From an uncultured Muribaculaceae bacterium (lineage in GTDB: Bacteria > Bacteroidota > Bacteroidia > Bacteroidales > Muribaculaceae): DNA of 50,432 nt. Every line of letters begins with the position of its first letter. Within the stretch, counting starts at the first letter, position 1. The DNA lies in NCBI GenBank assembly GCA_947179295.1, contig CAMXAZ010000012.1:1-50432 (forward strand), given 5' to 3'. A model generated the notes under the pieces. The model saw only the letters and a program-made list of their open reading frames with translations. It was not told where the DNA came from and searched no databases. Position numbers and translations under genes: made by a program. Positions 12,975 to 33,850 of the stretch are shown one piece after another.

Positions 12975-13006
12975 TTTGCCCATGTGATTTTTTTGTCGTA
13001 GATTTG
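12975..13006 (+). promoter_or_regulatory. Promoter of leader element A
   Basis: TTTG at 12975-12978 and TAGATTTG at 12999-13006, spacer 20. Transcription would start just before the first pairing segment of the leader. Confidence 0.75.
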
Positions 13007-13010
13007 CAGT

Positions 13011-13224
13011 GCCAACGTACATCATAGTTAACTATGCCGCATGAGCTCCGGTCAGAAGCTCGAATATTTCATCGGGTATTTTTTATGCCCTTACATAAAC
13101 AGCTACGGCTGTCATATCCTAATCATATAGCTCTGCGGAGCAACTGTGATGTACGTTTGGCGACGGGATATGGCAGCCGTCTTTTTTATACCACTGCCTC
13201 AAACAGCCAAACGTACATCACAGT
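13011..13224 (+). ncRNA. Structured leader element, copy A
   Basis: Order of parts: segment 1 (13011-13029); hairpin GAGCT/AGCTC (13043-13061); hairpin GGGTA/TGCCC (13074-13090); segment L ACGGCTGTCATATCC (13105-13119); hairpin GCTC/GAGC (13130-13141); segment 2 (13142-13161); segment R GGATATGGCAGCCGT (13166-13180), also folding as GACGG/CCGTC plus T6; segment 3 GCCAAACGTACATCACAGT (13206-13224), touching the ATG. Segment 2 pairs perfectly over 19 bases with segment 3, or with segment 1 with one bulge and one G-U. L pairs with R over 15 bases. The two states are mutually exclusive and would hide or free the start codon. Confidence 0.8.
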
Positions 13225-13614
13225 ATGAACAAATTTGAAAAACGAATGAACGCCCTGCGTCGCCAGTTCGCCGCCGAGCTCGACCAGATCACCCGCGACA
13301 CTTACCGTCACATCGGCCATCTCAACACCGCCATCTCTCAAATCTCCTTCCCCGAAGTCCGCGAAGCTCTCCGCGCCGAGAAGGAGCGCGTATATGAGGC
13401 CATGCGAGCCTCGCACCGCTACAATCGCCTCTGCTACCTCCAGCAGCTCGAAATGATCGAGGACGAGTACCAACACCACCGCACAAAGAACCCATCAGCC
13501 CGTCAGCTTCGCCGCATGATGACAATCCTACGCAAATCCGCTGAACAGAGCGGTCAGTCCTCCCTCTCAATCTCGCTTGGCGATAACCGCACCGCCACGG
13601 TCACATTCGGCTGA
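13225..13614 (+). CDS. Small helical accessory protein, family 1 (element A cargo)
   Basis: A 129-residue, highly charged, helical protein (FEKRMNALRRQFAAELDQI; EVREALRAEKERVYEAM) likely to form a coiled coil; no signal or membrane segment. Its first 90 residues are almost the same as the gene at 19599, with very similar DNA, while the C-termini differ. Start ATG is fixed by the leader, whose segment 3 abuts it. Function unknown. The pair looks like a recent duplication of leader plus gene. Confidence 0.75.
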   Translation: MNKFEKRMNALRRQFAAELDQITRDTYRHIGHLNTAISQISFPEVREALRAEKERVYEAMRASHRYNRLCYLQQLEMIEDEYQHHRTKNPSARQLRRMMTILRKSAEQSGQSSLSISLGDNRTATVTFG

Positions 13615-13662
13615 TCAGACTCCCATGCCGCCCAAGTACATCGCATAAAACGTCATCGCAAA

Positions 13663-13830
13663 CTGTCATCAACCGTGGTTGTAGTAACCACAGTTGCCGA
13701 CGATGGAAAGCAGCGTGAGATGATATGCCTGCCCTTGCATTACATACTCAGTTCAACTGCCTTTATGGTAAAGGCTGTTGCCGCTGATGAAAAAGACCGG
13801 GAAATGCTCTGCCTTCCCCTTGAGTATGTC
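13663..13830 (+). repeat. 84-bp in-frame tandem duplication
   Basis: Two adjacent 84-base units encode related 28-residue segments, both starting LSST and containing REM(I/L)CLPL(H/E)Y. The DNA of the two units has diverged at many third positions, so the duplication is not very recent. Confidence 0.7.
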
Positions 13831-14115
13831 TACGGCTGGATCTTCACAATTGATGCCAACCTTGTCGCAGAAACTAATCGAGAGTCCGTGGCTACCTACC
13901 AGCAAGAGTGCTATCAGGCACTTTACCGCCACTTCGCGGGTTCGCTTAAAAGGCAGCTTGACGCGAACGCTGCGGAAATCGAAGCTCTGCAGGCTATCAA
14001 TGACGCCATCTCACGCGAACGACAGGCAAAAGCTGACCGCCGCAAAGCCGAGGAGCACCTCGCCAACGTTCGCGCATCTCGTCTCGATTCTTCTCCTTGT
14101 CTGGAGTTCGAATAA
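13663..14115 (+). pseudogene. 5'-truncated P22_AR_N antirepressor with internal duplication
   Basis: The open frame runs from after a stop at 13612-13614; the first usual start codon is GTG 13675 (146 residues). The body matches the phage antirepressor N-terminal domain: REMLCLPLEYVYGWIFTID, then a TYQQECYQALYRHF helix and a coiled coil. The normal first 40-50 residues (the PIxxxLGID-type part) are missing, and no ATG lies upstream. A 28-codon unit beginning LSST and ending near LPLHYI/LPLEYV is tandemly duplicated (13663-13746 and 13747-13830). Probably non-functional, or a shortened derivative expressed from GTG. No promoter is seen; it follows the family 1 gene by 48 bases. Confidence 0.65.
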
Positions 14116-14131
14116 TAGATTAATTTTTCTT

Positions 14132-14171
14132 TTCCGCCGGACGCAAAGAGTTGCACCCGGCGGAATTTTTT
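14132..14171 (+). terminator. Rho-independent terminator
   Basis: TTCCGCCGG at 14132-14140 pairs with CCGGCGGAA at 14157-14165 and is followed by TTTTTT. It ends the element A transcription unit before promoter B. Confidence 0.8.
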
Positions 14172-14181
14172 CCTCCAAAAT

Positions 14182-14212
14182 TTTGCAGGCTCGAAAACTT
14201 GTCGTAGATTTG
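14182..14212 (+). promoter_or_regulatory. Promoter of leader element B
   Basis: TTTG at 14182-14185 and TAGATTTG at 14205-14212 with a 19-base spacer. Confidence 0.75.
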
Positions 14213-14216
14213 CAGT

Positions 14217-14429
14217 GCCAACAAACAACAGTGCAGTGTCACTGCCGCGGAGCCTCGGTCATAGGCTCGAACATATTCGGGCATTTTTTATGCCCATACA
14301 TAAATGGCTACGGCTGTTATATCCTACAACTTTTTTGCTCCTCGGAGTGAACACTGTTGTTTGTTTGGCGACGGGATATGGCAGCCGTCTTTCTATACCC
14401 CTGCCTATAAATGCCAAATAAACAACAGT
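14217..14429 (+). ncRNA. Structured leader element, copy B
   Basis: Same order of parts as copy A. Segment 1 is 14217-14233, L 14310-14324, segment 2 CACTGTTGTTTGTTTGGC 14352-14369, R 14374-14388, segment 3 GCCAAATAAACAACAGT 14413-14429, touching the ATG. Segment 2 pairs with segment 3 with one G-U and with segment 1 with one bulge. Hairpins GAGCCT/AGGCTC and GGGCA/TGCCC are kept. The bases of segments 1-3 differ from copy A but remain complementary to one another. Confidence 0.8.
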
Positions 14430-14624
14430 ATGAACAAACCCAAACAAACCCGCCGCGTGAGCTCCAGGAAGCTGCGCGCCGCATTTAATGACATTGCCGA
14501 CATGATCTGTGGCGGTCAGGACCGAATCACCCTCTCCCTCTCCGGCAACACCTTCGAAATCCATCTCGAAAACGCCACCATTAACATTTCAGTCAACGAA
14601 TCCAAGGAAGGAGGTGACAGATGA
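14430..14624 (+). CDS. Small accessory protein (element B cargo)
   Basis: A 64-residue protein starting at the ATG that abuts segment 3 of leader B. The basic N-terminus (KPKQTRRVSSRKLRAAF) is followed by a short beta hairpin (RITLSLSGNTFEIHLENATINISV). No recognised family. It overlaps the next gene by ATGA, so both are expressed from the same leader. An upstream in-frame ATG inside the leader is rejected because it would translate the structured RNA. Confidence 0.65.
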   Translation: MNKPKQTRRVSSRKLRAAFNDIADMICGGQDRITLSLSGNTFEIHLENATINISVNESKEGGDR

Positions 14625-14857
14625 GCCCCGGACAGATCACGATCCTTGACGGTTGGATCTCTCAATATACCCCTACGGAGACCTTTGACCCTGCTCTCGA
14701 TCATGTTTTCACTACCGAGCAGATTGTGGCCGACCTTTCGGATATGGCAGAGTGGGACACAAATGAAGTGGCCGATTACATAGCACAGGCCGGATTCCGC
14801 GTCCATCCCTGCTTCATAGGCTGCCCTCATGGGTGGATCTTCAGAGTAAAAAAATAA
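14621..14857 (+). CDS. Small accessory protein, family 2
   Basis: A 78-residue acidic protein. It is related to the product at 26967: both share PTET(F/Y)D, a central acidic region, (A/E)(Q/K)(A/G)GFR-like residues and the C-terminal GWI(F/L)(R/K)(V/L)K ending. Both lie behind a copy of the leader element (B here, D there). No signal or membrane segment. Function unknown; small acidic proteins of phages are often inhibitors or mimics, but nothing here proves it. Confidence 0.65.
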   Translation: MSPGQITILDGWISQYTPTETFDPALDHVFTTEQIVADLSDMAEWDTNEVADYIAQAGFRVHPCFIGCPHGWIFRVKK

Positions 14858-14891
14858 AAGTACATTTTTTATTGACATATACAAAAATCAG

Positions 14892-14918
14892 CAAGGTCTG
14901 CCGTGATGGCAGGCCTTG
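14892..14918 (+). terminator. Terminator with GTGAT loop
   Basis: CAAGGTCTGCC (14892-14902) pairs with GGCAGGCCTTG (14908-14918), loop GTGAT. It ends the element B unit. The T-rich stretch behind it contains the GTCTTTT box of the next promoter. Confidence 0.75.
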
Positions 14919-14931
14919 TTTGGTTTTGTTT

Positions 14932-14966
14932 GTCTTTTATAAGTCTGTGGGTAGGATCTACTTTTG
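14932..14966 (+). promoter_or_regulatory. Phage late promoter 3 (GTCTTTT ... TACTTTTG)
   Basis: GTCTTTT at 14932-14938, 20 bases, TACTTTTG at 14959-14966. The eleven bases TTGTCTTTTAT (14930-14940) are identical to those of late promoters 4 and 5. The start codon of the next gene is only 4 bases after the -7 box. Confidence 0.65.
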
Positions 14967-14970
14967 TTGC

Positions 14971-16044
14971 ATGGCAACACTGATTATCTCTTCTCCATCC
15001 GCCTCTGATCCGGTTCTTACATCGGCAATCGGACCCATCAGGGCCAGTACCGACAAATCAAAAGTACTGGTCGAGATTGTACGCGATCCGGAAGGTGAAA
15101 TTGATTTATTTTTTTCCACGACACTTTATCCTTATGACAATATTGTCGAACTGAATGACATCGGATCTCTGATAGAAGATCGGCTTCGGGCCGTTAATCG
15201 TATTTGGGACATGATAGAAATTCGCATTGATGGTGCTACCGCTGAATTTACGGCACTTTACTGTGAATATCTGTTAGCTCCGGATTTCAGACATGATACC
15301 TGCTTTCTATGCTCGGCCGCCACGTCCATAGTCCATCGCAATTCAGCCATATCTTTGGCACATTGGGATAATGGATCAAAAGAATATCAGGTTAAGGTTG
15401 TAGGACTTGATGAAAATGGCAAAACGGTTGCTCTCTCAGCGGTATTTTACCGCACACTTGAATCGAATCACGTGTCTTTTTCCGTCAATGACATCCTTGG
15501 CTTTGCGTTGAACAGATCTTCGATAGAGACCGGAGATGTTATGAGCTCAGTTTCCTACTTTGCTATATCTCATGGCGCCATACAGAAGGTTTTCTATCTG
15601 ATGGATCATCCGTTCTTCCTGACATTCTGTTTCCGGAACATATTCAATGCCATAGAATATGTTGACATTGCCGGCCTCGCTACCAGAATAACCAAAGTTA
15701 ATCGGGATACAGCCTATGTAGCCGGCCGGATGCAGCAATACGATCAGGCCATAGAGCGGTCCTTTGAAATGCACACCGGCCCTCTCACTGCTGACCAGGT
15801 GAAAGAAATTGAACAGCTTGTAGGTTCCAGAACAATTTATTTGTGTGCGTCTGATCGTGATTACAGAGTAATGATAACAGACCATACACTTGAATATGAT
15901 AATGATGATGAATCCCTGCCGTCGGCCAAATTTACCTTCTGTTTTGCAGACAAACGGCCAGTCCTTACATCCGGTGATATAGGAGCCCTTCTTCCCTCCG
16001 GCAACCATATTTTCACACATGAATTTACAGCTGAATTCTCATGA
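14971..16044 (+). CDS. Phage virion-associated protein of unknown role
   Basis: A 357-residue protein with mainly beta-strand character and no signal peptide, first gene of the portal operon. ATG 14971 is chosen because the frame upstream reads through the promoter. The distance from the -7 box implies a leaderless or nearly leaderless mRNA. No motif is recognised. Its position before the portal and head-tail genes, and overlap (ATGA) with the next small gene, suggest a structural or adaptor role. Confidence 0.7.
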   Translation: MATLIISSPSASDPVLTSAIGPIRASTDKSKVLVEIVRDPEGEIDLFFSTTLYPYDNIVELNDIGSLIEDRLRAVNRIWDMIEIRIDGATAEFTALYCEYLLAPDFRHDTCFLCSAATSIVHRNSAISLAHWDNGSKEYQVKVVGLDENGKTVALSAVFYRTLESNHVSFSVNDILGFALNRSSIETGDVMSSVSYFAISHGAIQKVFYLMDHPFFLTFCFRNIFNAIEYVDIAGLATRITKVNRDTAYVAGRMQQYDQAIERSFEMHTGPLTADQVKEIEQLVGSRTIYLCASDRDYRVMITDHTLEYDNDDESLPSAKFTFCFADKRPVLTSGDIGALLPSGNHIFTHEFTAEFS

Positions 16045-16274
16045 CAAAATCAATACATATTTCACAGGCCCTCAAAATGCTTGATCAGGGCAAAATTGTA
16101 TCTCTTAGAGTTGTCACAGCCAAAGGCCGGATCATGGAGTGTGACGACGTGATCTCGTTGAGTTATGATCGCTATAAAGGTACGCGGTCTATCAAATTCA
16201 TCCGGTCAGGCCAGATACGCACAATACATGATGTCTGTATTATCGGGCTGAATGATTTCGACGTATATCTCTAA
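16041..16274 (+). CDS. Small conserved phage protein
   Basis: A 77-residue protein, predicted as a small beta barrel (KIVSLRVVTAKGRIMECDDV ... GTRSIKFIRSGQIRTIHDV). It overlaps the previous gene by ATGA and precedes the portal gene by 20 bases. It is not recognised beyond being typical of Bacteroides phage head-tail regions. Confidence 0.6.
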   Translation: MTKSIHISQALKMLDQGKIVSLRVVTAKGRIMECDDVISLSYDRYKGTRSIKFIRSGQIRTIHDVCIIGLNDFDVYL

Positions 16275-16294
16275 TTCTATAACCTCTCTCTTCA

Positions 16295-17707
16295 ATGTCA
16301 AAAACAAAAATACCACGCTCAGCTCCGTTTCATTCCGGTTCTTACTATATAGATTCATTTTCTGTTCATCTCGTCCCGCGAACAAATGTCCGGGCTGCGA
16401 TCATCACGAAAACCACTACAGTTTTCCGTGAAGCGAATAACCTAAACATCAACACCACCCATGACGGGAAACAATACGTCACCTGGGGCGCCGATGACAT
16501 GCTCCCTTACAATCTTATTGACTTGATCGAAAAAGATGAAACCCTCTCGACCTGTCAGATATTCAATGCCGAAGTCTGCTATGGCAGCGGCCTTAAATAC
16601 TGCACGGAGGGAGCGTCACCGGCGGTCAAATCGGAGGTCGAGGATTTCCTTCTCGACAATCCTATGCCTGATTATTTCCTCGGAGTGTGTCAGGACTTCA
16701 AGCACTACAATTTTGCCGTCTCCGTCATAATCCTTAACGAAGACGGCGACAAAATTGTAGAGCTTCACCGCAAACCGGCCTGCTATTGTCGGTTCTGTCC
16801 GGCTGATGAGAAAACAGGCCGCATTACAAAGGTGCTGTTCGCCCCGTTCCGCAACCTCTCCCAGTGCGACTCGGTAGAGGAACTTGAATTGCTCGACCCT
16901 CGCTCTCCTTGGAAAGACCTTCAACAGCGTATGGCCCTGAGGGCGACCCGCGAGAATAGCGCCGGAGAGAACAAGACCAAGACCCGCAAATTTGCTATCC
17001 TGTCGAGATTCCCCGGCGTGGACTCAATGTACTATCCGATTCCTCACTACGCCGCTCTGTTCAAAGGCAGCTGGTACAACATAAAGCGGCTCATCGGGGA
17101 GGCGAAGATGGCCAAGCTCAAAAACGCTGCCCCTATAAAATACGTCATCGAAGTCTCGCCCAGATATTGGGACAACCTTTTTGCAAAACTCCATATCGTA
17201 GATCACAAAAAACAGGAGGAGCTGATGAATGAAAAGAAACAGGAAATGTTGGAGTTCCTTACCAACGTGGAGAACACCGGCTCGGTACTCTTTACGCCTA
17301 AGAGCATTTCGCTCGACGGCAAGGGTGAGACGGCTGACATCACAGTCACCTCGATCGACAGTAAGACGAAGGAAGGTGGCGACTGGGAGTCCGACATCGC
17401 CGAGGCCGTGAACATGGTGTGCTTTACTATGCGGGTGCATAGTAATCTTGTTGGCTCTGTGCCGGGAAAGGCTCAGACCAATAACTCCGGTTCTGACAAG
17501 CGCGAACTTTATACTATTGCTCAGGCCTTGCAGAAGCCCTACCACGATATTCTCTTTCTCGTTCACCAAATCATCATCAAATTCAACCGATGGAAGGGCG
17601 TCCATGTCGATTGCCCGTTCATTCAGCTTACCACCCTCGACGAGCATTCTGATGCCAGAGAAGTAACAACCAAAAATGTAGCTAAACCCGATGAATCTGA
17701 CTCTTGA
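16295..17707 (+). CDS. Portal protein
   Basis: A 470-residue protein. The pattern fits a portal subunit: an N-terminal beta region, WGADDMLPYNLIDLIEKD near 70-85, a long central domain with IPHYAALFKGSWYNIKRLIGEAKMA, a helical stem (KKQEELMNEKKQEMLEFL), and NMVCFTMRVHSNLVG ... KRELYTIAQALQKPYHDIL near the end, typical of Bacteroides phage portals. It forms the dodecameric DNA channel at the head vertex. ATG 16295 is preceded by CCTCTCTCTTC. It overlaps the next gene by 17 bases. Unusually it lies 6 kb after the terminase, with the lysis cassette between. Confidence 0.8.
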   Translation: MSKTKIPRSAPFHSGSYYIDSFSVHLVPRTNVRAAIITKTTTVFREANNLNINTTHDGKQYVTWGADDMLPYNLIDLIEKDETLSTCQIFNAEVCYGSGLKYCTEGASPAVKSEVEDFLLDNPMPDYFLGVCQDFKHYNFAVSVIILNEDGDKIVELHRKPACYCRFCPADEKTGRITKVLFAPFRNLSQCDSVEELELLDPRSPWKDLQQRMALRATRENSAGENKTKTRKFAILSRFPGVDSMYYPIPHYAALFKGSWYNIKRLIGEAKMAKLKNAAPIKYVIEVSPRYWDNLFAKLHIVDHKKQEELMNEKKQEMLEFLTNVENTGSVLFTPKSISLDGKGETADITVTSIDSKTKEGGDWESDIAEAVNMVCFTMRVHSNLVGSVPGKAQTNNSGSDKRELYTIAQALQKPYHDILFLVHQIIIKFNRWKGVHVDCPFIQLTTLDEHSDAREVTTKNVAKPDESDS

Positions 17708-18524
17708 TAATAACAGACTGCGTTCTCTTATACCGAATGTTATTCATGAAGTAGAAGGGGAGACATCTCTTTTCGACAAACTGCAGCCTTGGATCTCATT
17801 CGCTCGCTTTTGGGTGGAGCGATATTTTCTCGGCGACTTGCAGCCGGAAGGCCATATCTATGAATTGGCTGAGAATATTATCGTTAACAAAGCTTTCTCC
17901 GATGCAATACCTTCCCTCGATGTCACGCTTAGCCCTGCCGGCTTCGCTGTCATCAATACCGATGGCCGGGCACCGGCTTCTAAGGAACGTATTGAACGAC
18001 TTATCGCCTCTCTGAATTCTTTCGTTGACGAGAGTGCCACAGCCCTACTGGAGGAGCTACATCGCAATCACGAATGGTCTTTATCTGAGAATCGCCGATG
18101 GTTCTGTGCTACATTTATTCCTACATTCTGCGATGTCCCGAAGTTCAGGCGCGAGCAGGACCTCATTGGCACCTATCTGAATATGCGTGACATAGCGTTA
18201 GCTTTTGAACAGACATTGGCAGATCGCTATCTCGGCCACGGGTTCCTTTCCTTCTTGCGGTCTTCGTTCCCTGTTTTCAAGGACAATGGTACTGCGGAGA
18301 TATTCGAGATGATTCATGCTGCAGAGCTTCGCTACATCACTTATCATATTAGAGACTCAAAAGCCAAGTGTCCGGATGAACATGAAGTGTGGCACATGGT
18401 TCAGCCAATCGTTGCAAAGCTTAGCTGTTGGCCGGAACTGAAAAACACATGGGAAGCTGAGATGGGTGATAAGTTCAAAGTACAACCTTTCAAAAACACC
18501 GTCAAGGGCGGTTTCTATTTCTGA
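17691..18524 (+). CDS. Head-tail connector-like protein (DUF6712-like)
   Basis: A 277-residue helical protein directly behind the portal. It has a pattern I associate with a Bacteroides phage family of unknown function near connector genes (LFDKLQPWISFARFWVERYF; helix-rich C-terminus with HEVWHMVQPIVAKLS). Its place suggests a head-completion or connector role. The stop overlaps the next ATG as TGATG. Confidence 0.55.
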   Translation: MNLTLDNNRLRSLIPNVIHEVEGETSLFDKLQPWISFARFWVERYFLGDLQPEGHIYELAENIIVNKAFSDAIPSLDVTLSPAGFAVINTDGRAPASKERIERLIASLNSFVDESATALLEELHRNHEWSLSENRRWFCATFIPTFCDVPKFRREQDLIGTYLNMRDIALAFEQTLADRYLGHGFLSFLRSSFPVFKDNGTAEIFEMIHAAELRYITYHIRDSKAKCPDEHEVWHMVQPIVAKLSCWPELKNTWEAEMGDKFKVQPFKNTVKGGFYF

Positions 18525-19312
18525 TGGCTACAGTTGTTAATGTCAATGTCCCTAAAGGGTGGACGGAACTGTCTCAGCAGCAACTCCGCTTCCTCCTTAC
18601 AACTATGGTGACCGTCAATCTTGACAACACGAATGTCGGCTTCCGGTCGCAGGATGACTATGCGCTTCATATAGCAGCTCAGGTGCAGACCATATGCTTC
18701 TTCAAATGGTCCGGTCTGACTGTCGTGTGCCCATATGATTCCGGTTATCTCGTGCGCTCCGGCGACATAGAGTTTATGCTGTCGGCCGAAACGGTGGCTG
18801 CTGCTCTTTCTCATCTCTCCTGGACTAAGGAACTACCTGCGGACCCGATCCGCCTTGATACTGTTGACGGAGCCAACGCTATCCCGGCCGATATTTCTTC
18901 GGGGCTCTCCTTCGATGCTTGGCTCGCTTGTGACACCCTATGGCAGCGGTATCAGCTCAGCACAGATGAAGCATTGCTCAGACAGATGGCTGAAATTCTC
19001 TACAATAAAGAGAATATTAAAATGACAGCAGCCGAAACTCTTGGAATATTCTACTGGTGGGCCGGCGTAAAAAATCTTGTCTCGGCTATGTTCCCCAATT
19101 TCTTCAAGCCTGCAGCTGTGGACTCTGAACCAACTCCGCCATCTTATGATGAGTTGCGAAGAAACATTGACGCTCAGATCCGGGCATTGACAAAGGGTGA
19201 TATTACCAAAGAAAAAGAGATTCTGGCGCTTGATGCAATGCGAGCTCTTACAGAGCTTGACGCTCAAGCCCGCGAATATGATGAAATCCGTAAAAAATAC
19301 CCATCAAAATAG
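18524..19312 (+). CDS. Phage structural-region protein of unknown role
   Basis: A 262-residue protein with an N-terminal mixed region (GWTELSQQQLRFLLTTMV) and a helical C-terminal half ending in a charged coiled coil. No signal peptide. It is translationally coupled to the gene before it. In Bacteroides prophages a similar protein follows the connector gene; function unknown. It is the last gene before leader element C. Confidence 0.6.
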   Translation: MATVVNVNVPKGWTELSQQQLRFLLTTMVTVNLDNTNVGFRSQDDYALHIAAQVQTICFFKWSGLTVVCPYDSGYLVRSGDIEFMLSAETVAAALSHLSWTKELPADPIRLDTVDGANAIPADISSGLSFDAWLACDTLWQRYQLSTDEALLRQMAEILYNKENIKMTAAETLGIFYWWAGVKNLVSAMFPNFFKPAAVDSEPTPPSYDELRRNIDAQIRALTKGDITKEKEILALDAMRALTELDAQAREYDEIRKKYPSK

Positions 19313-19341
19313 TTTTTTCGTAAAAATGTCGGAGATCATGA

Positions 19342-19371
19342 TTGCCCATTCAAAATTTCTCCGTACATTTG
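19342..19371 (+). promoter_or_regulatory. Promoter of leader element C
   Basis: TTG at 19342-19344 and TACATTTG at 19364-19371, spacer 19. Confidence 0.7.
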
Positions 19372-19375
19372 CAGT

Positions 19376-19598
19376 GCCAACCTAATCAACAGTGTTTGTC
19401 ACTGCCGAAGAGCCCCGGTCAGAGGCTCGAAAATCTTTCGGGCATTTTTTATGCCCCTACATACACAGCTTAGCGGCTGTCATATCCTACAACTTTTTTT
19501 TTGCTCTTCGGAGTGAACACTGTTGTTTAGTTTGGCGACGGGATATGGCAGCCGTCTTTTTTTATACACTGCCTGTAATTGCCAAACTAAATAACAGT
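19376..19598 (+). ncRNA. Structured leader element, copy C
   Basis: Segment 1 is 19376-19394, L 19474-19487, segment 2 CACTGTTGTTTAGTTTGGC 19518-19536, R 19541-19554, segment 3 GCCAAACTAAATAACAGT 19581-19598, touching the ATG. Segments 2 and 3 pair over 18 bases with one G-U; segments 1 and 2 pair less well, with a mismatch and a bulge. Hairpins GAGCC/GGCTC and GGGCA/TGCCC are conserved. The terminator-like hairpin GACGG/CCGTC is followed by seven T. Confidence 0.8.
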
Positions 19599-19910
19599 AT
19601 GAACAAATTTGAAAAACGAATGAACGCCCTGCGCCGACAGTTCGCCGCCGAGCTCGACCAGATCACCCGCGACGCTTATCGTCGCGTCTGTCATCTCAAC
19701 ACCGCCATCTCTCAAATCTCCTTCCCCGAAGTCCGCGAAGCTCTCCGCGCCGAGAAGGAGCGCGTATATGAGGCCATGCGCACCTCCCACAAGTACAATC
19801 GCCTCTGCTACCTACAGCAGCTCGAACTTCTTGAGAATGAATACCGCCTGCACCTCGCCGCACACCCCTCTAAAAGTCAGCAGCGCCGATTGGCCGCTGA
19901 TGCCGTCTGA
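19599..19910 (+). CDS. Small helical accessory protein, family 1 (element C cargo)
   Basis: A 103-residue paralogue of the product of 13225: the first 90 residues are nearly the same (differences such as DAYRRVCH for DTYRHIGH), then the C-terminus is shorter and different. The start abuts leader segment 3. Charged, helical, probably coiled-coil. Function unknown. A strong terminator follows 21 bases downstream, so it is a single-gene unit inserted between two structural operons. Confidence 0.75.
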   Translation: MNKFEKRMNALRRQFAAELDQITRDAYRRVCHLNTAISQISFPEVREALRAEKERVYEAMRTSHKYNRLCYLQQLELLENEYRLHLAAHPSKSQQRRLAADAV

Positions 19911-19931
19911 AACCTATTAGCGTCTGACCTC

Positions 19932-19968
19932 GACAAAGAGGCTCGCCGTGATGGCGAGCCTCTTTGTC
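19932..19968 (+). terminator. Terminator with GTGAT loop
   Basis: A perfect 16-bp stem: GACAAAGAGGCTCGCC (19932-19947) and GGCGAGCCTCTTTGTC (19953-19968), loop GTGAT, then TTTT. The descending arm overlaps the GTCTTTT box of late promoter 4. Confidence 0.85.
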
Positions 19969-20000
19969 TTTTATGGCGCGACATCCTATGCCTAACTTTG
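19966..20000 (+). promoter_or_regulatory. Phage late promoter 4 (GTCTTTT ... TAACTTTG)
   Basis: GTCTTTT at 19966-19972, 20 bases, TAACTTTG at 19993-20000. It drives the neck and tail-fibre genes; the ATG of the first is 24 bases downstream. Confidence 0.65.
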
Positions 20001-20024
20001 TGCCATCATAAAACAGCAAGTTCA

Positions 20025-20525: not shown

Positions 20526-21052
20526 CATCACAGAAAGAAATAGAAACCCGTAGAAAGTGGATTGAAGGATGGAACAGGACTATGATCTCGATTTGGAAGG
20601 AGCGTATTGACCTGTTAGACGTAAAGGATACAGAGAAACTCTATAAATCTCCTGCGTTGGTAGAGTTTGCAGTAGATCCAGATGGTCGGTTGTTGGGATT
20701 TCATATTAAATTTGAATACACAGAATATGGGCTGTGGCAAGATCTTGGAACCGGTAGAGAATTCACTCATGACAATGGTGGAGACCTTCCGTTTCTTGAT
20801 GCCGACTATCGAGAAACCCACGGTCTTGATAAACCCAAAAAGAGAGGCCCTGCCTGGGGTGGCGGATTTACGAGTGGTTTGCCTCGTGCTCGTAGACGCT
20901 GGTTTTCTACCAAATATTATACTTCTGTAATGAGTCTTAAAAAATTCATGGCCGAGTCAATAGGCGATGAATTCAAAGCTTTGTTTACAAGCCTTGATGC
21001 GGAAGACTATAGGTATAATACAGAGTATTACAAGAAAAAAGGGTGGGGCTGA
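20510..21052 (+). CDS. Tail-completion (HK97 gp10-like) protein, putative
   Basis: A 180-residue basic protein. LWKER-like helices at the start are followed by KFEYTEYGLWQDLGTGREFTH, close to the Y(A/G)xxxxxGTG pattern of neck or tail-completion proteins, and RRRWFSTKYYTSVMSLKKFM near the end. No signal peptide. Base composition is more AT-rich than its neighbours. The next reading frame begins directly after the stop. Confidence 0.55.
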   Translation: MATGITSQKEIETRRKWIEGWNRTMISIWKERIDLLDVKDTEKLYKSPALVEFAVDPDGRLLGFHIKFEYTEYGLWQDLGTGREFTHDNGGDLPFLDADYRETHGLDKPKKRGPAWGGGFTSGLPRARRRWFSTKYYTSVMSLKKFMAESIGDEFKALFTSLDAEDYRYNTEYYKKKGWG

Positions 21053-21106
21053 TTGTCTTTTACCGCATTGCTCTTAACCACTAAATTAGCTACAAATTCG
21101 AAACAA

Positions 21107-22681
21107 ATGTTAGAAACAACCTCTCTCCAAAAGAAAATTGATGCCGTCATTACAGAGATACGTAATGATGCCATAACTCCATTGATTATAGGTACGATCC
21201 TATCGGAAATTCTAACCCTTATCCGATCCGGAGACTTGACCGACTGGCAGCCACAGGTTCAAAAATCTCTTGAGTCTCTTTCGTCCGCTATTGCATCTGA
21301 AGCCACCCTTCGAGCCTCGGATGATAATGAACAGCGGGCTGCAATAGCCTTACTCCGGCGCGCTCTTGACGAGTCAGAGGACGGAACATTCGCACAGTCT
21401 GTCAGGGAGGATATACGGGATATATTCAGCCATCTGACTTTCTTGCGCGATGACCTGACTCTGACAGACCACGAAATAAATCGGATAAACGATGTCATTG
21501 ATTCCATTTTAGGCGAAAACGCATCGGATGCAATTGAAAATTTCCATGAGATCCTTTCCTTTCTGGATGGCGTTAAGGACACAGATTCGCTTGTTGGGCT
21601 GCTTGACCGTATCAGGCAGAGTATTAATGCCAACTCTAACCGTTTGTCGGAGCTTTATCCATTCAGTGCTGTAAGGTGTCCTGAAAGTGAAGTCGGTGTT
21701 ATTATGGATGGTACTTCGCGGCTAGGTTCAGTCCGATATTATGAGACTACAGATACATATCGTAATGTCGTTATTGTCACAACTGTTGATGATAACACCT
21801 TCATTCAGTATCGTTTCTCTGAGAAAGGGATTGATTATAGGCGTGGACGCTGGGACGCTGATGATAACGTGAGATATAATACCGAATGGCTCCCTTTGAC
21901 AGAGCTGTTTGAATCGCTTACATCGACCTTAAAATTAAAAGCCGACCGCTCGGAACTGAGCAACGTCCTTGCAGATCCCACATCGTTTGAGGATGATGAC
22001 GAGTTTGAATCGGTTTCTGGCTTTCAGCGCGAAGATCTCAAACTTGATCTGCTGATTGATCTTTGGGCCGAGGCTTTCAAGATCGGGGCCAATGTTTATG
22101 GCAAATATGATCCGAATAATGCTCCTGATCCAGAACATCCGTTCCGAGCCTATGATCTTTGGCTGACATATGAAGAGGCTATCGCCGTCATATTGGCCGG
22201 ACGGCCATACAACAATGATGATACTGCGAGGTTTTACAAAGCAAAGCCGATCAGAACCAATTTGCCTTTTCTTTCATCTCCACAATCCGGATTTGGCGAA
22301 TTTGCATTCGCCAATAATACGGCGGAAGTACTCAGGCTCTCTGACGGTAGCAATACAATAACATCACCTTATGCTTTTTATCATTGTTCGAAACTTCATA
22401 CTATTATAAATCGTATCATAGCTGAATCAGGCTATGTATTTGGACATTGCCCTAAGCTGGTTTCAGTACAAGTTGCCATAAAATCCGGCTTGATATTTTA
22501 TCTTGATACGTGCCCGTCTTTGAGTCTCGAAAGTTTCAGATATATGGTAGATAATTCCGAATCCTGCTCTCTGATTGTCCACCCCGACGTCTACGCCAAA
22601 CTCACAGACGAGGCAAACACCCAATGGCACCAAATCCTGCTCGATGCCGCAGAAAAGAATATAAACTTTGCAACCGTATAA
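21107..22681 (+). CDS. Tail-fibre / receptor-binding-like protein 1
   Basis: From ATG 21107 the protein has 524 residues; a TTG at 21053 is also in frame. The first 200 residues are helical with heptad character, like a fibre shaft. Then comes a domain with YGKYDPNNAPDPEHPFRAYDLWLTYEEA and a leucine-rich-repeat-like region (FYHCSKLHTIIN, FGHCPKLVSVQV), ending with HPDVYAKLTDEA ... NINFATV. The C-terminal module is shared with the next two genes and the broken fourth copy. A role in host-surface binding is inferred. Confidence 0.75.
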   Translation: MLETTSLQKKIDAVITEIRNDAITPLIIGTILSEILTLIRSGDLTDWQPQVQKSLESLSSAIASEATLRASDDNEQRAAIALLRRALDESEDGTFAQSVREDIRDIFSHLTFLRDDLTLTDHEINRINDVIDSILGENASDAIENFHEILSFLDGVKDTDSLVGLLDRIRQSINANSNRLSELYPFSAVRCPESEVGVIMDGTSRLGSVRYYETTDTYRNVVIVTTVDDNTFIQYRFSEKGIDYRRGRWDADDNVRYNTEWLPLTELFESLTSTLKLKADRSELSNVLADPTSFEDDDEFESVSGFQREDLKLDLLIDLWAEAFKIGANVYGKYDPNNAPDPEHPFRAYDLWLTYEEAIAVILAGRPYNNDDTARFYKAKPIRTNLPFLSSPQSGFGEFAFANNTAEVLRLSDGSNTITSPYAFYHCSKLHTIINRIIAESGYVFGHCPKLVSVQVAIKSGLIFYLDTCPSLSLESFRYMVDNSESCSLIVHPDVYAKLTDEANTQWHQILLDAAEKNINFATV

Positions 22682-22692
22682 CCGCAATGGCA
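22577..22692 (+). repeat. Direct repeat at fibre gene 3' end, copy 1
   Basis: A block of about 116 bases covering the end of fibre gene 1, the spacer and the start of gene 2 is nearly identical (3 differences) to 23542-23657. It encodes the shared HPDVYAKLTDEA ... INFATV end plus the ACCGCAATGGCA junction. Confidence 0.8.
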
Positions 22693-23646
22693 AAAACGAC
22701 AACCCTCAGGGAACGAGGCTCATTGCAGCCTCTTTACCCCAAAACAATCTCATCACAGGTCATACTCCCAGACGGTCACAACCTAGACCATGAGTTATCT
22801 AAACAAAGCAACGTTCTTGCCGTCTCCACCGAAAACCGGATCGAGGAGATCGAGCCCGGCATCATCACCGATGCGCTGAGAAAGGTTCCGCAGGTGCTGA
22901 CCCCTGAAGAGCAGGAGCAGGTAAAAGCCAACATCGGAGTGAGCAAGATGGAGTTGTTCTGCGATCTGTTTACTGAAGCCTGCATAGTTTATGGCAGAAA
23001 TGGAGGTATCAAGCAGCAATGTGGATATGCGCGCATTACAGATGGTCTATTTGACTGTATGCTGAACGGTCTGTCTCTTACATTATCTGAAGCCCTCAAA
23101 ATTTATTCCGCTGGGCGCATACGCACTCCGAATGCTTCACGAGCCTATTACGCAGCCAAGATAAGAACGAATCTACCGCCGAGCGTCGGTGCTGCGGGTG
23201 GAGTCCACCCTGCAAACCTCAGTGCATATGAGTTGTATTATGGCCCTTGGATGGAGGTTCTTAACCTTGTACCAACCGGGGAGGACACCAAATATACGCT
23301 ATCTTCCGGCAGCACACAGATTTTTCATGAAGCCTCACTTCTTCATACAATTTTAGGCCCGGTCTCGCTATTTAATATGCCCTCAGGCGCAGCTCCTTTT
23401 TCAGGTGCGCCAAAGTTGGCGAATGTTCAACTTCAGCAGGTGTCCAAAAATCTGTCATTGTCAAATCTCGCCTTCCTGTCTTTGGATTCAGTCTCATATC
23501 TTGTGCACAATGCCTCCAATACGACCTCAATCACTCTCACCGTCCACCCCGACGTCTACGCCAAGCTCACAGACGAGGCAAACACCCAATGGCACCAAGT
23601 CCTGATCGATGCCGCAGAAAAGAATATAAACTTTGCAACCGTATAA
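22687..23646 (+). CDS. Tail-fibre-like protein 2
   Basis: A 319-residue paralogue starting at ATG 22687, six bases after the previous gene. The N-terminus (TTTLRERGSLQPLYPKT) resembles that of the next protein (ITTLTDRQSGAPLYPVT). The middle is variable, and the C-terminus repeats the shared module (LAFLSLDSVSYLVHNASN, HPDVYAKLTDEA). An earlier in-frame start lies in the preceding coding sequence and is rejected. Likely another adhesin attached by its N-terminus. Confidence 0.75.
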   Translation: MAKTTTLRERGSLQPLYPKTISSQVILPDGHNLDHELSKQSNVLAVSTENRIEEIEPGIITDALRKVPQVLTPEEQEQVKANIGVSKMELFCDLFTEACIVYGRNGGIKQQCGYARITDGLFDCMLNGLSLTLSEALKIYSAGRIRTPNASRAYYAAKIRTNLPPSVGAAGGVHPANLSAYELYYGPWMEVLNLVPTGEDTKYTLSSGSTQIFHEASLLHTILGPVSLFNMPSGAAPFSGAPKLANVQLQQVSKNLSLSNLAFLSLDSVSYLVHNASNTTSITLTVHPDVYAKLTDEANTQWHQVLIDAAEKNINFATV

Positions 23647-23657
23647 CCGCAATGGCA
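23542..23657 (+). repeat. Direct repeat at fibre gene 3' end, copy 2
   Basis: Second copy of the block at 22577-22692. Homologous recombination between the two would delete or exchange gene 2 precisely in frame. Confidence 0.8.
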
Positions 23658-24593
23658 CAGATAACAACACTTACCGACCGCCAGTCCGGCGCTCCGCTCT
23701 ATCCCGTGACAAGCACCAAAGCTGTATTCTCAGGCGCGGGTGAAGATCTCGACGCTCTTCTCGCTGGGCAGAAGCAGGACCTCCAGAACTCGCTTCGGGA
23801 CTACGCTCAGAAAACCGATCTCACCGATGGCCTTGCCAAAAAGCAAGACACCCTCTCAACCTCAGAGGATCTGCAGATCACAGACGGCAATCAGCTCTCG
23901 CTGACGGCTATGGCGAAGATGCGACTGTTCATCGACATGTGGAACGAGGCGTGCGGCACCTACGGCAAATACGATCCGGCCAACGCTCCGGACCCGGACC
24001 ATCCGTTCTATCTCAACACCCTTTGGCTGACATATGAAGAGGCGGTAGCCGTGATGATTTTGCCAGTAATGAATCCGAGCAACCTGAACAGGCTTTACCA
24101 TGATGTAAAAACGGCGAGGACGCATATGCCGACATTGTCGTACATGAGCGTCTCAGCCGGGGTCGGCACATTTATTGGTTCATCGTTTGAGGTAATTGAG
24201 GCTGGTAGTATCTCTGTCGGCCGTGACATGTTTAATAACTGCAACAATCTCAGACGTGTCAGTATTTATGCGCCTAATAATAACACCCTGATTCCAGATA
24301 TATGGAGCGGGTGCGCAAAACTTGAAAATGTAGAATTTTCTGTTGTTTATCGCACGTCTTTTTCGCTCAGTGATTCTCCGCTGTTGTCGTTGCCTACAGC
24401 ACAGCGTATTGTAAGCAAAACATCCGCATCAGGAACGGCGTTTACCATCACCGTCCATCAGAATGTGTATGCCAAGCTTACAGGAGATACCACCAACGAG
24501 GCTGCTGCGGCACTTATGCCGGAAGAGTCGGCGCAGTGGCAGCAGGTGTTGCTCGACGCTGTAGCCAAAAACATTTCATTTGCTACCGTCTAA
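23652..24593 (+). CDS. Tail-fibre-like protein 3
   Basis: A 313-residue paralogue, six bases after gene 2. It carries the N-terminal ITTLTDRQSGAPLYP motif, a short coiled coil (RDYAQKTDLTDGLAKKQDTL), the YGKYDPANAPDPDHPF / LWLTYEEA motif, LRR-like strands (FNNCNNLRRVSIY, WSGCAKLENVEFS) and a longer version of the C-terminal module with an extra TGDTTNEAAAALMPEES insertion. A receptor-binding or accessory fibre role is inferred. Confidence 0.75.
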   Translation: MAQITTLTDRQSGAPLYPVTSTKAVFSGAGEDLDALLAGQKQDLQNSLRDYAQKTDLTDGLAKKQDTLSTSEDLQITDGNQLSLTAMAKMRLFIDMWNEACGTYGKYDPANAPDPDHPFYLNTLWLTYEEAVAVMILPVMNPSNLNRLYHDVKTARTHMPTLSYMSVSAGVGTFIGSSFEVIEAGSISVGRDMFNNCNNLRRVSIYAPNNNTLIPDIWSGCAKLENVEFSVVYRTSFSLSDSPLLSLPTAQRIVSKTSASGTAFTITVHQNVYAKLTGDTTNEAAAALMPEESAQWQQVLLDAVAKNISFATV

Positions 24594-24609
24594 AAATAAT
24601 AATTAAACA

Positions 24610-25324
24610 ATGGAAACAAGGATAATAAATTCATTAACAGAGATTAACATTTCGGGGGGGGTAATTTCATTACCGAGAATTATGCCACATACTTCCCTAC
24701 GTTCTCCACCTGCCGGATACTTCTGCCGTCGCAGACCGCCGATGACTTCCGTGAGATCACAGCCGCCGAAAAGTCGCGTCTTGAAGCCGCCGCAGCCTCT
24801 TGGTCGCGGCCGCCGCAGCTATTCATTGATCTTTGGGATAAAGCCTGCGCAAACTACGGGCGATACAACGAAGCTACCGGCTACTTCGAGCTGAACGGCC
24901 TGACCGATATAACCTATGAGGAGGCTCAGAAAATATATAGTGCGTATATCGGAGATACTATGATCCGCGGATGTCGCACTAATCTGCCATTGCCGGAATA
25001 TTATGACGCTCCTAAAAATAATGGGCGGCGATTTACAAATACAGATGTGGAGATCATAAATGCCAGACTGGATTATGATGTTGAGATTTTGAACACTCAT
25101 TCTCTAAGAGAAATTTCGACAATATATTTGATCGACACAAATGCAAATAATTTTTTAGTTCAAAGTCGATCTCTGGAATATGTAAGATTCACTCATCAGA
25201 ATCATTCTCAACCATCACCGTTCATCCGGATGTCTACGCCAAGCTTACAGATGAAACCAATGAAGAATGGCACAAGGTGTTGACGGATGCAGCTGATAAA
25301 AACATAAACTTTGCAACAATTTAA
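24610..25324 (+). pseudogene. Broken fourth tail-fibre-like gene
   Basis: Starts normally at ATG 24610 (METRIINSLTEINISGG), then loses frame at a run of eight G (24654-24661). The second frame continues the family domain (LFIDLWDKACANYGRYNE, ITYEEAQKIYSAYI, LRR-like strands) to about 25190. A further frame change with a missing stretch of roughly 30 residues follows, after which the usual ending (ITVHPDVYAKLTDET ... NINFATI) is found up to the stop at 25322-25324. One extra or two fewer G would restore the first frame but not the second lesion. Confidence 0.8.
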
Positions 25325-25337
25325 CAATAACAGAACA

Positions 25338-25865
25338 ATGACAACAACAGAACTCAAAGGCGGACTTGTCAGCCTTCAGGCCCAGGAAGGCTACCTGCTC
25401 CGCAGAATCGGGGCCGATCCCCACACCACCATCACCCGGACAACCGTCAAGGCCGACCAGCTCGCACAGTGGGAAGAAGTTCCCGCCGGTCAAGTCCCCG
25501 TCTACACCAAGGCGGAGTATGATGCCAAGGTTTCCGAAATGGTCCGTCAGCGCTATTCAGCCGACGAGGAATTCGCCATTCAGCGCAAGCTGATCAGCGC
25601 CATGCTTAACCCGACAGCCATGACCCTCGGTGAGAATGACCAGCCATCCACACCGGGAGCCATCGAAGAGTTCAACGCCTACAACACATATGTGGAGCAA
25701 TGCAAGGCCCGCGCCAAAGATCATGTACTTTATACCCGCACCGATGACACGACCGCACGACTGTCTGAAGATCCCTCTTCTTCTCCTAACGTCATCCAAA
25801 CCGAGGCCTCTATCCCCGACACATTAGATCCGGACTCAGACAGCCCGGACAACGCTGCCGAATAG
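25338..25865 (+). CDS. Tail-fibre-associated / assembly-like protein
   Basis: From ATG 25338 a 175-residue protein. The pattern (LVSLQAQEGYLLRRIGADPHTTITRTTV, then DEEFAIQRKLISAMLNP, then EEFNAYNTYVEQCKARAK) is common behind Bacteroides phage fibre genes; function not known. It may be a fibre chaperone. The C-terminus is acidic and disordered. It ends the fibre operon; a 22-bp hairpin follows. Confidence 0.65.
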   Translation: MTTTELKGGLVSLQAQEGYLLRRIGADPHTTITRTTVKADQLAQWEEVPAGQVPVYTKAEYDAKVSEMVRQRYSADEEFAIQRKLISAMLNPTAMTLGENDQPSTPGAIEEFNAYNTYVEQCKARAKDHVLYTRTDDTTARLSEDPSSSPNVIQTEASIPDTLDPDSDSPDNAAE

Positions 25866-25880
25866 ACCGCCGCACCTGAA

Positions 25881-25928
25881 TAAAGTCAAATAGCGTCAGT
25901 TTCCATAAACTGACGCTATTTGACTTTA
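25881..25928. terminator. Perfect 22-bp hairpin terminator
   Basis: The arms 25881-25902 and 25907-25928 are perfectly complementary over 22 bases with a CCAT loop. The outer bases are A/T-rich on both sides, so it can terminate in either direction. It separates the fibre operon from the large non-coding region. Confidence 0.8.
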
Positions 25929-25929
25929 T

Positions 25930-26560
25930 AGGGGAGAGGTGTGGCGCACGTTCCAGAGGAACACTTACGCCACTCATTTCATAATCCCGCCCGCATCCCC
26001 CTCGTAGAAGCGCATCCACGGCACAAAGCTCCACGCCATCGACACATTTACATTACAGTCGGGAGAGAGTATTGTCATAGTCCTTTGGCCTATTCCACGG
26101 CGCTTAACGTTCGCATTTGCCGTCAGCTCAACCGATCGGGGCTGACATTGGCCTGAAGCAAGTATCGAGGCTCCGCATCGACACACACGTCTGGCCGCAG
26201 TCCGGGCGCCCCTCCCGGAAGAGCTGACGGCAAGGCGGTCCTAAGGACACACTTCAAAGCACCGTCTACTCATTCCCTTCTTTCATTTCCATGTGCTTCT
26301 GACGTTCCGCCAAGCGCCTAATCACCGCTTCTACGAGCCTAAGGCACCCGCAAGGGGCAGAGCAATCACCGGCCAGGAGTCATCCCCCTCACAGAGTCGG
26401 GATGACTTATGCGCCGGCCTCATTACCGTGCGGCTTTTGGATCGGCCCGCACATGGGACTCTGCATATTCCGCAAACTCCAAAGAAGCCGATCCTCCTCG
26501 CTCCGTAGGGCGGACGGGGGCGCTTCCGACGGAAAAAGGGGAAAATTTCCCCTTTTAACC
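25930..26560. ncRNA. Candidate large structured phage RNA (strand unproven)
   Basis: About 600 bases without a credible gene in an otherwise packed genome. Long-range complementarity is strong: CTCGTAGAAGCG (26001-26012) with CGCTTCTACGAG (26326-26337); inside it GCCGTCAGCTC (26119-26129) with GAGCTGACGGC (26221-26231). Local hairpins: GTGGCG/CGCCAC (25941-25973) around GTTCC/GGAAC; CCGGG/CCCGG (26202-26218); GTCC/GGAC (26238-26248); AGTCATCCC/GGGATGACT (26378-26407) enclosed by CCGGC/GCCGG (26369-26417); GTGCGG/CCGCAC (26428-26452), with an alternative GGATCGG/CCGATCC (26439-26494). Terminator-like hairpins bound it on both sides. The plus strand is favoured because all neighbours are plus. 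Confidence 0.65.
26534..26556. terminator. Terminator-like hairpin after structured region
   Basis: AAAAGGGGA (26534-26542) pairs with TCCCCTTTT (26548-26556) and works on either strand because of the A and T runs. It marks the right end of the non-coding region. Confidence 0.6.
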
Positions 26561-26644
26561 CCTTTAATACCTTGAAATTTACGCCTTTGTATTTTTAACT
26601 ACTGGAAAATCGCAAAAAATCGTAAAAATTCAAGGAGAATTGCA

Positions 26645-26773
26645 ATGAAGACACATTTGAGTGACAGGTATTTACATACTCTGAAAAATCAGCGAAAATT
26701 TTTCGGGTGTTGCGTTGTTGTCGTATCAGATATATTTTGTAAATTTGCAGAGCCAACGAACCATAACGGTTAG
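26645..26773 (+). CDS. Possible 42-residue protein
   Basis: ATG 26645 is preceded by AAGGAGA at 26632-26638, one of few Shine-Dalgarno-like sequences here. The frame runs 42 codons to TAG 26773, with a cysteine-rich middle (FFGCCVVVV). It reads through promoter D and the first segment of leader D, so it may be chance. No relative is known to me. Confidence 0.25.
   Translation: MKTHLSDRYLHTLKNQRKFFGCCVVVVSDIFCKFAEPTNHNG
26718..26747 (+). promoter_or_regulatory. Promoter of leader element D
   Basis: TTG at 26718-26720 and TAAATTTG at 26740-26747 with a 19-base spacer. Confidence 0.7.
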
Positions 26774-26964
26774 CCCGTTCCGAGGAGTCACGGTCATCGG
26801 CTCGAACATTCTTCGGGCATTTTTTATGCCCTTACAGTCTTAGACGGCTGCTGTATTCTCACAACTTTTGTTCTTCGGAACGGAAACCTTGTGGTTCGTT
26901 TGGCGACGGAATATGGCAGCCGTCTTTTTTTACTCTGCCTATAAACGCCAAATGAACTACAAGT
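26752..26964 (+). ncRNA. Structured leader element, copy D
   Basis: The most diverged copy. Segment 1 is 26752-26771, L 26844-26858, segment 2 ACCTTGTGGTTCGTTTGGC 26886-26904, segment 3 GCCAAATGAACTACAAGT 26947-26964, two bases before the ATG. Segments 2 and 3 pair with two G-U. In the L/R stem a G-C pair of copies A-C is an A-U pair (R has GGAATAT, L has TATTC), a compensatory change. The small apical hairpin is GTTC/GGAAC here versus GCTC/GAGC in A, again compensatory. GACGG/CCGTC plus T7 is kept. Confidence 0.78.
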
Positions 26965-26966
26965 AA

Positions 26967-27225: not shown

Positions 27226-27399
27226 ATGGAAGGCATAATCATCATAATAATAGTGATCGCGGTATTGTCCGCTATTCCGGGTGGGAAATCATCACCCCCT
27301 TCCCGCAGACGCAATCGACATCGATCCGACAAGCCTTACGGGCTGCCGTGGATGGGTGGATCAATGAAAGAGAAGAAAAAAGATTATTTTTCAGACTGA
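27226..27399 (+). CDS. 57-residue single-helix membrane peptide
   Basis: ATG 27226, five bases after the family 2 gene. Residues 3-18 are a membrane helix made of six isoleucines in a row followed by VIAVLSAIPGG; the rest is short and very basic (RRRNRHR). Ends at TGA 27399, just before a terminator. It could be a small membrane effector or holin-like peptide; no relative is recognised. Confidence 0.5.
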   Translation: MEGIIIIIIVIAVLSAIPGGKSSPPSRRRNRHRSDKPYGLPWMGGSMKEKKKDYFSD

Positions 27400-33833: not shown

Positions 33834-33850
33834 GCAAATGTACAAGTCAG

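Follow-up and report, generated by a model that had tools for sequence, protein, structure and literature searches.

A repeated prophage leader with competing RNA strands: a candidate switch before accessory genes in a Muribaculaceae bacterium

The stretch of DNA analysed here (the window; 50,432 nucleotides of contig CAMXAZ010000012.1 from the uncultured Muribaculaceae assembly GCA_947179295.1) is part of a prophage, with an integrase gene (33885-35105) adjoining a tRNA-Pro gene, an amidase and a minor-tail/tape-measure gene. It harbours four copies, A to D, of a leader of about 215 nucleotides (nt), each in the order promoter, leader, gene. Judged from sequence comparison, this leader is a real and widespread RNA family without an Rfam entry. 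It is best read as a switch and not simply as a module for expression: each cassette would be an autonomously transcribed phage unit whose leader acts in cis as an RNA switch by three-strand exchange, to which a probability of about 0.6 is given. An earlier note on this DNA had described the four copies and their order, which are borne out by the sequence itself, by the count of an internal hairpin and by covariance model scores. It had missed the triple of strands a, M and a', the long-range helix AT:T and the antirepressor-type cargo.

Anatomy and pairing of the leader

Read from 5' to 3', the leader consists of strand a, the small hairpin P0, the hairpins P3 (GAGCC-loop-GGCTC) and P4 (GGGC, a U-rich loop, GCCC), strand AT, P6, strand M, strand T, a U-tract, strand a' and the ATG. 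Strand a comprises GCC, GCT or GTC followed by about 12 copy-specific nt. M is complementary both to a, at the leader 5' end, and to a', which runs up to the start codon. AT and T likewise complement each other, forming a long-range helix that ends in the U-tract. P2 (CCGAAGAGC:GCTCTTCGG) overlaps letters of P3 and P6, and a short helix, T2, joins GGCAG in T with CTGCC past the U-tract (variants GACAG:CTGTC and TACAG:CTGTA; a matching 5-mer occurs in 62/93 leaders).

When aligned, the four copies have in common a TAnnTTTG element, a structured core of about 180 nt, the U-tract and the start codon. The element ends 4 nt before the leader in all of them, and the cargo ATG follows the leader. From strand a through the start codon, they occupy 13011-13227 (A), 14217-14432 (B), 19376-19601 (C) and 26752-26969 (D). 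The P4 hairpin TCGGGCATTTTTTATGCCC, allowing at most 3 mismatches, occurs four times, against 0.02 expected from shuffles. The covariance model R1, built from 17 sequences including copies A to D, scores these copies at 153-167 bits, and the two copies that were folded have z-scores against shuffles of -5.7 (A) and -4.8 (C). The whole genome of the host contains five R1 matches; the fifth (L028, G000:C14:214-392) lies at a contig end and has different cargo.

Pairing was compared over 99 unique leaders, which remain from 103 R1 matches over 95 loci after one antisense match and three duplicates are subtracted; the six weakest places (G051:C505, G248, G039, G130, G083 and G094), L065, L067, L071 and the viral matches of a second scan stand outside this set. 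The contiguous a:M pairing score is 13.4 with the own partner and 6.1 with swapped partners (swapped 99th percentile 10.0), and that of M:a' is 16.0 versus 7.5 (99th percentile 11.6), with 12 random swaps per leader, relatives included. The distance from the end of a' to the start codon has a median of 0 (95 leaders). Covariation was counted in an alignment of 103 rows, 100 of them distinct, over 14 pairs of the a:M helix (P1), five of P3 and eight of AT:T, with P0, P2, P5, P6 and T2 outside the count. Here 91.7% of the cells are paired, 26/27 pairs have changed on both sides, and the covariation score is 0.493, against 0.180 for shuffled and 0.042-0.077 for slid controls. Because the alignment was fitted to a model containing part of P1 and P3, the counts for these two helices lean on it; AT:T lies outside that model.

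The local GACGG/CCGTC hairpin of the earlier note is present in the four copies. As the conserved terminator it was ruled out, because it is lost, by eye, in L007, L013 and L014 and is not a family-wide stem. The long-range AT:T helix, ending at the same U-tract, is kept throughout the family, and a U-tract occurs in 92/93 leaders. A coding leader was also ruled out, each frame being stop-free in 8-11/99 leaders and the lengths being spread evenly modulo 3. In several distant leaders (L063, L068, L070 and L107), three of which precede Bro-N genes, a different and longer hairpin with CCCCGTG...AATG replaces P6.

The strict promoter element TAnnTTTG precedes 73/99 leaders, against 3/99 in a shifted control window, and stands 4 nt before strand a in 64 of these 73. 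A Bacteroides promoter consensus is given in an excerpt of PMC7366714. The features of the four cassettes are as follows, with the basis in brackets.

12975-13006, plus strand: cassette A promoter, TTTG, 20 nt and TAGATTTG (sequence)
13011-13029, plus strand: cassette A strand a, leader 5' end, complement of M (partner-swap pairing)
13072-13090, plus strand: cassette A hairpin P4 with U-rich loop (shuffle count)
13105-13119, plus strand: cassette A strand AT, partner of T (covariation)
13142-13161, plus strand: cassette A strand M, partner of a or a' (partner-swap pairing)
13163-13187, plus strand: cassette A strand T and U-tract, putative terminator with AT (covariation)
13206-13224, plus strand: cassette A strand a', abutting the start codon (partner-swap pairing)
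13225-13614, plus strand: cassette A cargo gene 1, 129 amino acids (aa), no family match
13675-14115, plus strand: cassette A gene 2, P22_AR_N (profile 51-110 of 115), antirepressor-like (E 1.2e-20)
14205-14212, plus strand: cassette B -7 promoter element TAGATTTG
14217-14429, plus strand: cassette B leader, a to a' (M 14350-14369, T and U-tract 14371-14392, a' 14413-14429)
14430-14857, plus strand: cassette B cargo, a 64 aa gene and an overlapping 78 aa gene (32% identity to the D protein)
19364-19371, plus strand: cassette C -7 promoter element TACATTTG
19376-19598, plus strand: cassette C leader, a to a' (M 19516-19536, T and U-tract 19538-19563, a' 19581-19598)
19599-19910, plus strand: cassette C cargo, 103 aa, paralogue of A gene 1 (86% over 300 nt)
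19936-19972, plus strand: cassette C 3' terminator-like hairpin with T-rich tail
26740-26747, plus strand: cassette D -7 promoter element TAAATTTG
26752-26963, plus strand: cassette D leader, a to a' (M 26884-26904, T and U-tract 26906-26931, a' 26947-26963)
26967-27221, plus strand: cassette D cargo gene 1, 84 aa, predicted order helix-strand-helix-helix-strand-strand (H-E-H-H-E-E)
27226-27399, plus strand: cassette D cargo gene 2, 57 aa, hydrophobic N-terminus

Distribution of the family

A covariance model search, proposed in the earlier note as a check, found the family in many related genomes and viral contigs. With the own genome included in each count, a leader is present at E 0.001 in 53/297 genomes of the host family (82 places, with at least two in 18 genomes), in 12/393 genomes of the order, several of them weak, and in 3/395 genomes of the phylum, where the other two are weak (25.6 and 31.9 bits). 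These genome sets are draws from larger groups under stricter filters. Pattern searches yielded L001, L002, L004 and 19 viral stretches, all matched by R1; L003, from Bacillota, was discarded as a chance pattern match. A second viral pattern scan returned at least 120 stretches, and 16 of the 80 given to R1 contained 18 matches, one of them antisense. Such an antisense match also occurs at 13099-13250 of the window, because the leader is self-complementary.

The GenBank record of a human-gut phage, MT835542.1, carries a clear leader copy with a' adjoining the ATG. The leader and protein of copy D have no match among 50,697 phage records, nor has the L068 leader; the matches of the L176 query there, 33-nt stretches around the promoter in two microviruses, were taken as chance. 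A scan of thirty proteins from seven long loci, together with three from the window, returned families of phage integrase, tape-measure, terminase, portal and Mu-like transposition proteins, and some of the proteins matched ordinary host families. Since these matches were pooled across the seven loci, they show a phage setting in general only.

The earlier view that no such repeated leader belongs to standard annotation agrees with Rfam 15, which has no match for the window leaders: a gathering-level scan of the window and nine viral loci returned tRNA as the sole match, and permissive scans of copies A and B and of L176 gave matches far below the gathering scores only. The Rfam model of the phage RNA C4 (RF01695) matches nothing in the window, the nine viral loci, copies A and B or L176, nor in a search of the own genome that is weak alone, its controls also having given none. 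No description of the family was found in open-licence literature listings or in the portions consulted of PMC2864571 and PMC8040213. Published Bacteroidetes candidates include some near phage domains, and the present family may be among them. It is an unlisted RNA family common in prophages of Muribaculaceae, and its leaders sit at positions where control of lysis and lysogeny may be expected.

The proposed switch and its competitors

A scheme of termination, translation control, ON and OFF states, order of events and signal may be inferred from this layout. Transcription would begin at or beside strand a. In the nascent RNA, local hairpins would form first, and M, on emerging, would pair with a to give P1, an early permissive ON fold that leaves a' and the start codon free. 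P1 encloses AT and should therefore oppose the AT:T stem with its U-tract. Without P1, AT would pair with T and transcription would stop after about 180 nt (OFF). In RNA that has been read through, a' would displace a from M and the start codon would be masked, again giving OFF. M and T are nearly adjacent, so that AT:T and M:a', judging from this spacing, could stack end to end. The conserved loop of P3 and the U-rich loop of P4 would be likely contacts for a signal, be it a protein, a ligand or an RNA.

As far as layout goes, the leader is arranged like an attenuator, with the AT:T stem, the U-tract and P1 crossing AT:T. Over 93 leaders, the median duplex energies are -25.7 kcal/mol for a:M, -24.8 for M:a' and -28.7 for AT:T, and the similar values for a:M and M:a' make a and a' balanced competitors. 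With helices enforced on the full RNA, M:a' beats P1 in 59/84 leaders, and the two lie within 3 kcal in 35. Folding of prefixes of copy A, the one copy so treated, gives P1 at 140-150 nt and its replacement by M:a' at 210 nt.

Several observations weigh against the switch as proposed. M:a' is the better duplex in only 36/93 leaders, which rules out the idea that, of the two partners of M, a is the weaker throughout. In RNA cut at the U-tract, with helices enforced, P1 beats AT:T in 83/84 leaders by a median of 9.6 kcal; as nested energy models thus favour P1, termination needs something that stops P1 from forming. These models leave the pseudoknotted stacking of AT:T and M:a' outside the computation. 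Some U-tracts are short or broken, as in copy B, and a looser promoter score (5 of 6 letters) gives no separation, with 95/99 leaders against 76/99 controls. Most cargo proteins (102/110) have no Pfam family at E 0.001.

A ligand- or protein-sensing riboswitch or attenuator, in which P3 and P4 form the sensor and a, M and a' the expression platform, would be compatible with three-strand exchange and is quite possible, if short of even odds. By reading, the pairing strands look much less conserved than P3 and P4; a P4 pattern served to retrieve the viral set, which makes the conservation of P4 there partly a matter of selection. The cargo gives no hint of a ligand, and no Rfam riboswitch matches the window, the nine viral loci, copies A and B or L176. 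Known attenuators and riboswitch platforms resemble the leader in their mutually exclusive helices, a putative terminator with U-tract and sequestration of the start codon. The leader differs from them in combining hypervariable switching strands with an otherwise conserved sequence, in its three-way complementarity, and in being phage-borne and multi-copy. As a natural case of three-strand exchange, in which the specificity code can be separated from a conserved core, such a switch would be useful for studies of RNA folding and for gene control in Bacteroides.

The c4 RNA of phage P1 lies on the same strand as ant and pairs at the start region, and the immunity difference between P1 and P7 runs through c4; judging by the title of a 1992 paper, it is reportedly a processed RNA of 77 bases. 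In the sections consulted of PMC8546580 and PMC8201110, c4 is described as a repressor of Ant antirepressor synthesis, with the gene order C4, ant1/2, kilA (PMC8201110). The present leader is likewise a phage RNA, which in a minority of cases precedes a recognisable antirepressor-type gene, and it is complementary to a downstream translation start, probably within one transcript to judge from the layout. It differs from c4 (RF01695) in its length of about 180 nt to the U-tract, its single long M, its third strand a, its several copies per phage and the lack of a C4 model match. The family is perhaps c4-like in its role, by analogy.

This analogy has a stronger form, in which the terminated RNA of about 180 nt would act in trans as an antisense RNA: its M would repress a' on the mRNA of the same or an incoming phage and set the immunity type, and a would be an internal target mimic. 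The rate at which M changes bears on this idea. In pairs among 96 anchored leaders whose remaining leader is 80-95% identical, M is less alike, with mean identities per bin of 0.50-0.67 in 17 same-genome pairs and 0.61-0.82 in 127 different-genome pairs (shuffled baseline 0.46). In pairs with related cargo (44 non-independent pairs, with 15 scored sites in M), identities at 4-fold sites, in the rest of the leader and in M are 0.855, 0.845 and 0.643 for 8 same-genome pairs, and 0.583, 0.777 and 0.665 for 36 different-genome pairs. When pairs are close, M tends to diverge more quickly than 4-fold sites, even though three strands must agree, through selection or exchange. Selection for orthogonality of co-resident copies was dropped as the cause, as the nine different-genome pairs among those listed with a 4-fold identity of at least 0.7 (the near-identical L107/L108 excluded) average 0.63 in M. 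M is hypervariable generally, not specially within one genome.

An antisense action in trans would fit the position of the leader before antirepressor genes, as with c4 and ant in P1: L068 precedes Bro-N and then KilA-N, echoing the P1 order, and the compact leader L176 precedes Bro-N with ANT/KilAC. It would also fit M being less alike than 4-fold sites in 7/8 of the same-genome pairs with related cargo, and the mostly orthogonal pairing of co-resident copies, whose M:a' duplexes have a median of -25.2 kcal for 42 own pairs, -9.4 for 92 co-resident cross pairs and -8.3 for 399 pairs between genomes. Some of these own-pair energies are weakened (95th percentile -4.7 kcal) by reading frames that were chosen in the wrong frame at an overlapping upstream ATG, as in L054, L083, L093, L097 and L092_1236. 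In the own genome, the five copies range from -19.5 to -33.8 kcal for M with its own a' and from -6.4 to -21.0 with another a'; copies B and C, however, cross-pair at -21 kcal. Furthermore, antisense action in trans has no need of strand a, yet the family retains it; in 89/93 leaders M is buried within P1 when the cut RNA is given a nested fold; and the hypervariability extends beyond same-genome copies. A search for second targets with two of the five copies found none for A and one 2-mismatch site for D, whose reversed control also gave one; this search is weak, as it missed D's own a' because of G-U pairs. On balance, a trans-acting antisense RNA is rather unlikely. A little less likely still is a broader picture of RNA-coded immunity in Bacteroidales phages, with private, fast-changing a/M/a' codes, up to five per phage, a short terminated RNA acting in trans and in cis, and each code guarding antirepressor-like cargo. 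If it were true, related phages would differ in immunity type by RNA sequence.

Cargo genes and the probable gain of cassettes

As the earlier note had observed, the cassettes carry small accessory genes, and leaders elsewhere also precede small variable genes: 95/99 are followed by an ATG open reading frame of at least 35 aa, a count made without a chance control and with a few picks out of frame. A second frame lies behind 86/95 of these, with a 4-nt overlap (ATGA) in 53/86, and by reading the same types of second gene follow differing first genes. A Pfam scan at E 0.001 of 110 cargo proteins (70 first and 40 second genes, near-duplicates dropped) matched eight: three Bro-N and one each of pRha, P22_AR_N, AntA, KilA-N and SymE. 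Seven of the eight are phage antirepressor or related domains. Such domains occur in 5/70 first genes (L037, L060, L063, L068, L107) and, beyond the scanned set, behind L176. Anti-repressor is named in 16/25 PHROGs families among the matches listed, the best 25 of 40. The cargo thus probably consists of phage control genes, antirepressor-type where recognisable and otherwise small proteins without a family. If the proposed switch holds, it would give a concrete handle on switching in poorly understood gut prophages and suggest regulatory roles for nameless small genes. According to an extract of PMC3121763, Gifsy prophages have small trans-acting antirepressors under LexA control; the antirepressor output is alike, and the control is LexA there and an RNA leader here.

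The cassettes could instead be units resembling type I toxin-antitoxin systems, an explanation that one SymE-type protein among the 110 and the many cargo proteins that are small and, by reading, hydrophobic-looking would suit. With a single SymE and the other seven Pfam matches of antirepressor type, it is improbable.

The protein of D gene 1 is related to B gene 2 and, more distantly, to several other second genes. Its confident model (predicted local distance difference test score, pLDDT, 93.8) has the order H-E-H-H-E-E, which is winged-helix-like. It matches no PDB structure at E 0.001, the weak top rows being mostly winged-helix regulators of MarR and CodY types, and a PDB sequence search with the protein gave no match at E 5. 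The model of B gene 1 is moderate (pLDDT 84.3, predicted template modelling score 0.59). KGG codons frequently stand at the end of first cargo genes; in cassette B, 14600-14624 reads GGAGGTGA, likely the ribosome-binding site of the overlapping second gene, the first gene lying behind a'.

The earlier note had placed the cassettes between structural operons and taken them for a mobile or repeatedly copied module. As to the setting, the minor-tail/tape-measure gene after D is recognised, whereas ten proteins (cargo and neighbours) have no PHROGs match at E 0.01. Copying and modular gain are well in keeping with the sequence. A 300-nt stretch that includes the beginnings of the cargo genes of A and C is 86% identical between the two, and cassette C fills a 712-nt gap between two genes. 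In two syntenic relatives these genes are separated by 18 nt (G031, L242) and 13 nt (G215, L244), and neither interval holds a leader. The insert comprises promoter, leader, gene and terminator-like hairpin, and, by reading, a new TAnnTTTG-like element stands before the next gene. Modular gain of cassette C is likely on this comparison. Such elements, again by reading, appear afresh after the ends of cassettes B, C and D.

The module may or may not be mobile; reading revealed neither a recombinase nor terminal repeats. The presence or absence of cassette C as a unit would be expected if the repeats were mobile-element ends or recombination sites rather than RNA. The copy-specific strands, however, show their three-way match inside each copy but not from one copy to another, which is not expected of DNA ends, and the matching ends of a cassette are RNA pairing strands. 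The spacing from promoter to a is fixed, no recombinase family was found among the 110 cargo proteins at E 0.001, and reading of one cassette C junction, without a systematic search, revealed no target repeats. That the repeats are such DNA ends or sites rather than RNA is highly improbable.

The term moron denotes a phage unit with its own promoter, a terminator-like end and small cargo. The cassettes share these traits, and cassette C is present or absent at the same place in relatives; they differ from morons in the conserved putative RNA switch before the cargo.

Three operon-end hairpins (14891-14927, 19936-19972 and 33835-33886) have the tip GCCGTGATGGC in common and a T-rich tail. Directly 5' of cassette A, 12389-12970 encodes a retropepsin-like aspartyl protease domain (PF13650, PF13975), and the protein of 1378-2088 matches a type I restriction specificity domain (PF01420, E 6.9e-5). 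The region 21053-25325 consists of tandem paralogous genes with repeats of about 110 nt that are 75-95% identical, possibly tail-fibre or receptor-binding genes.

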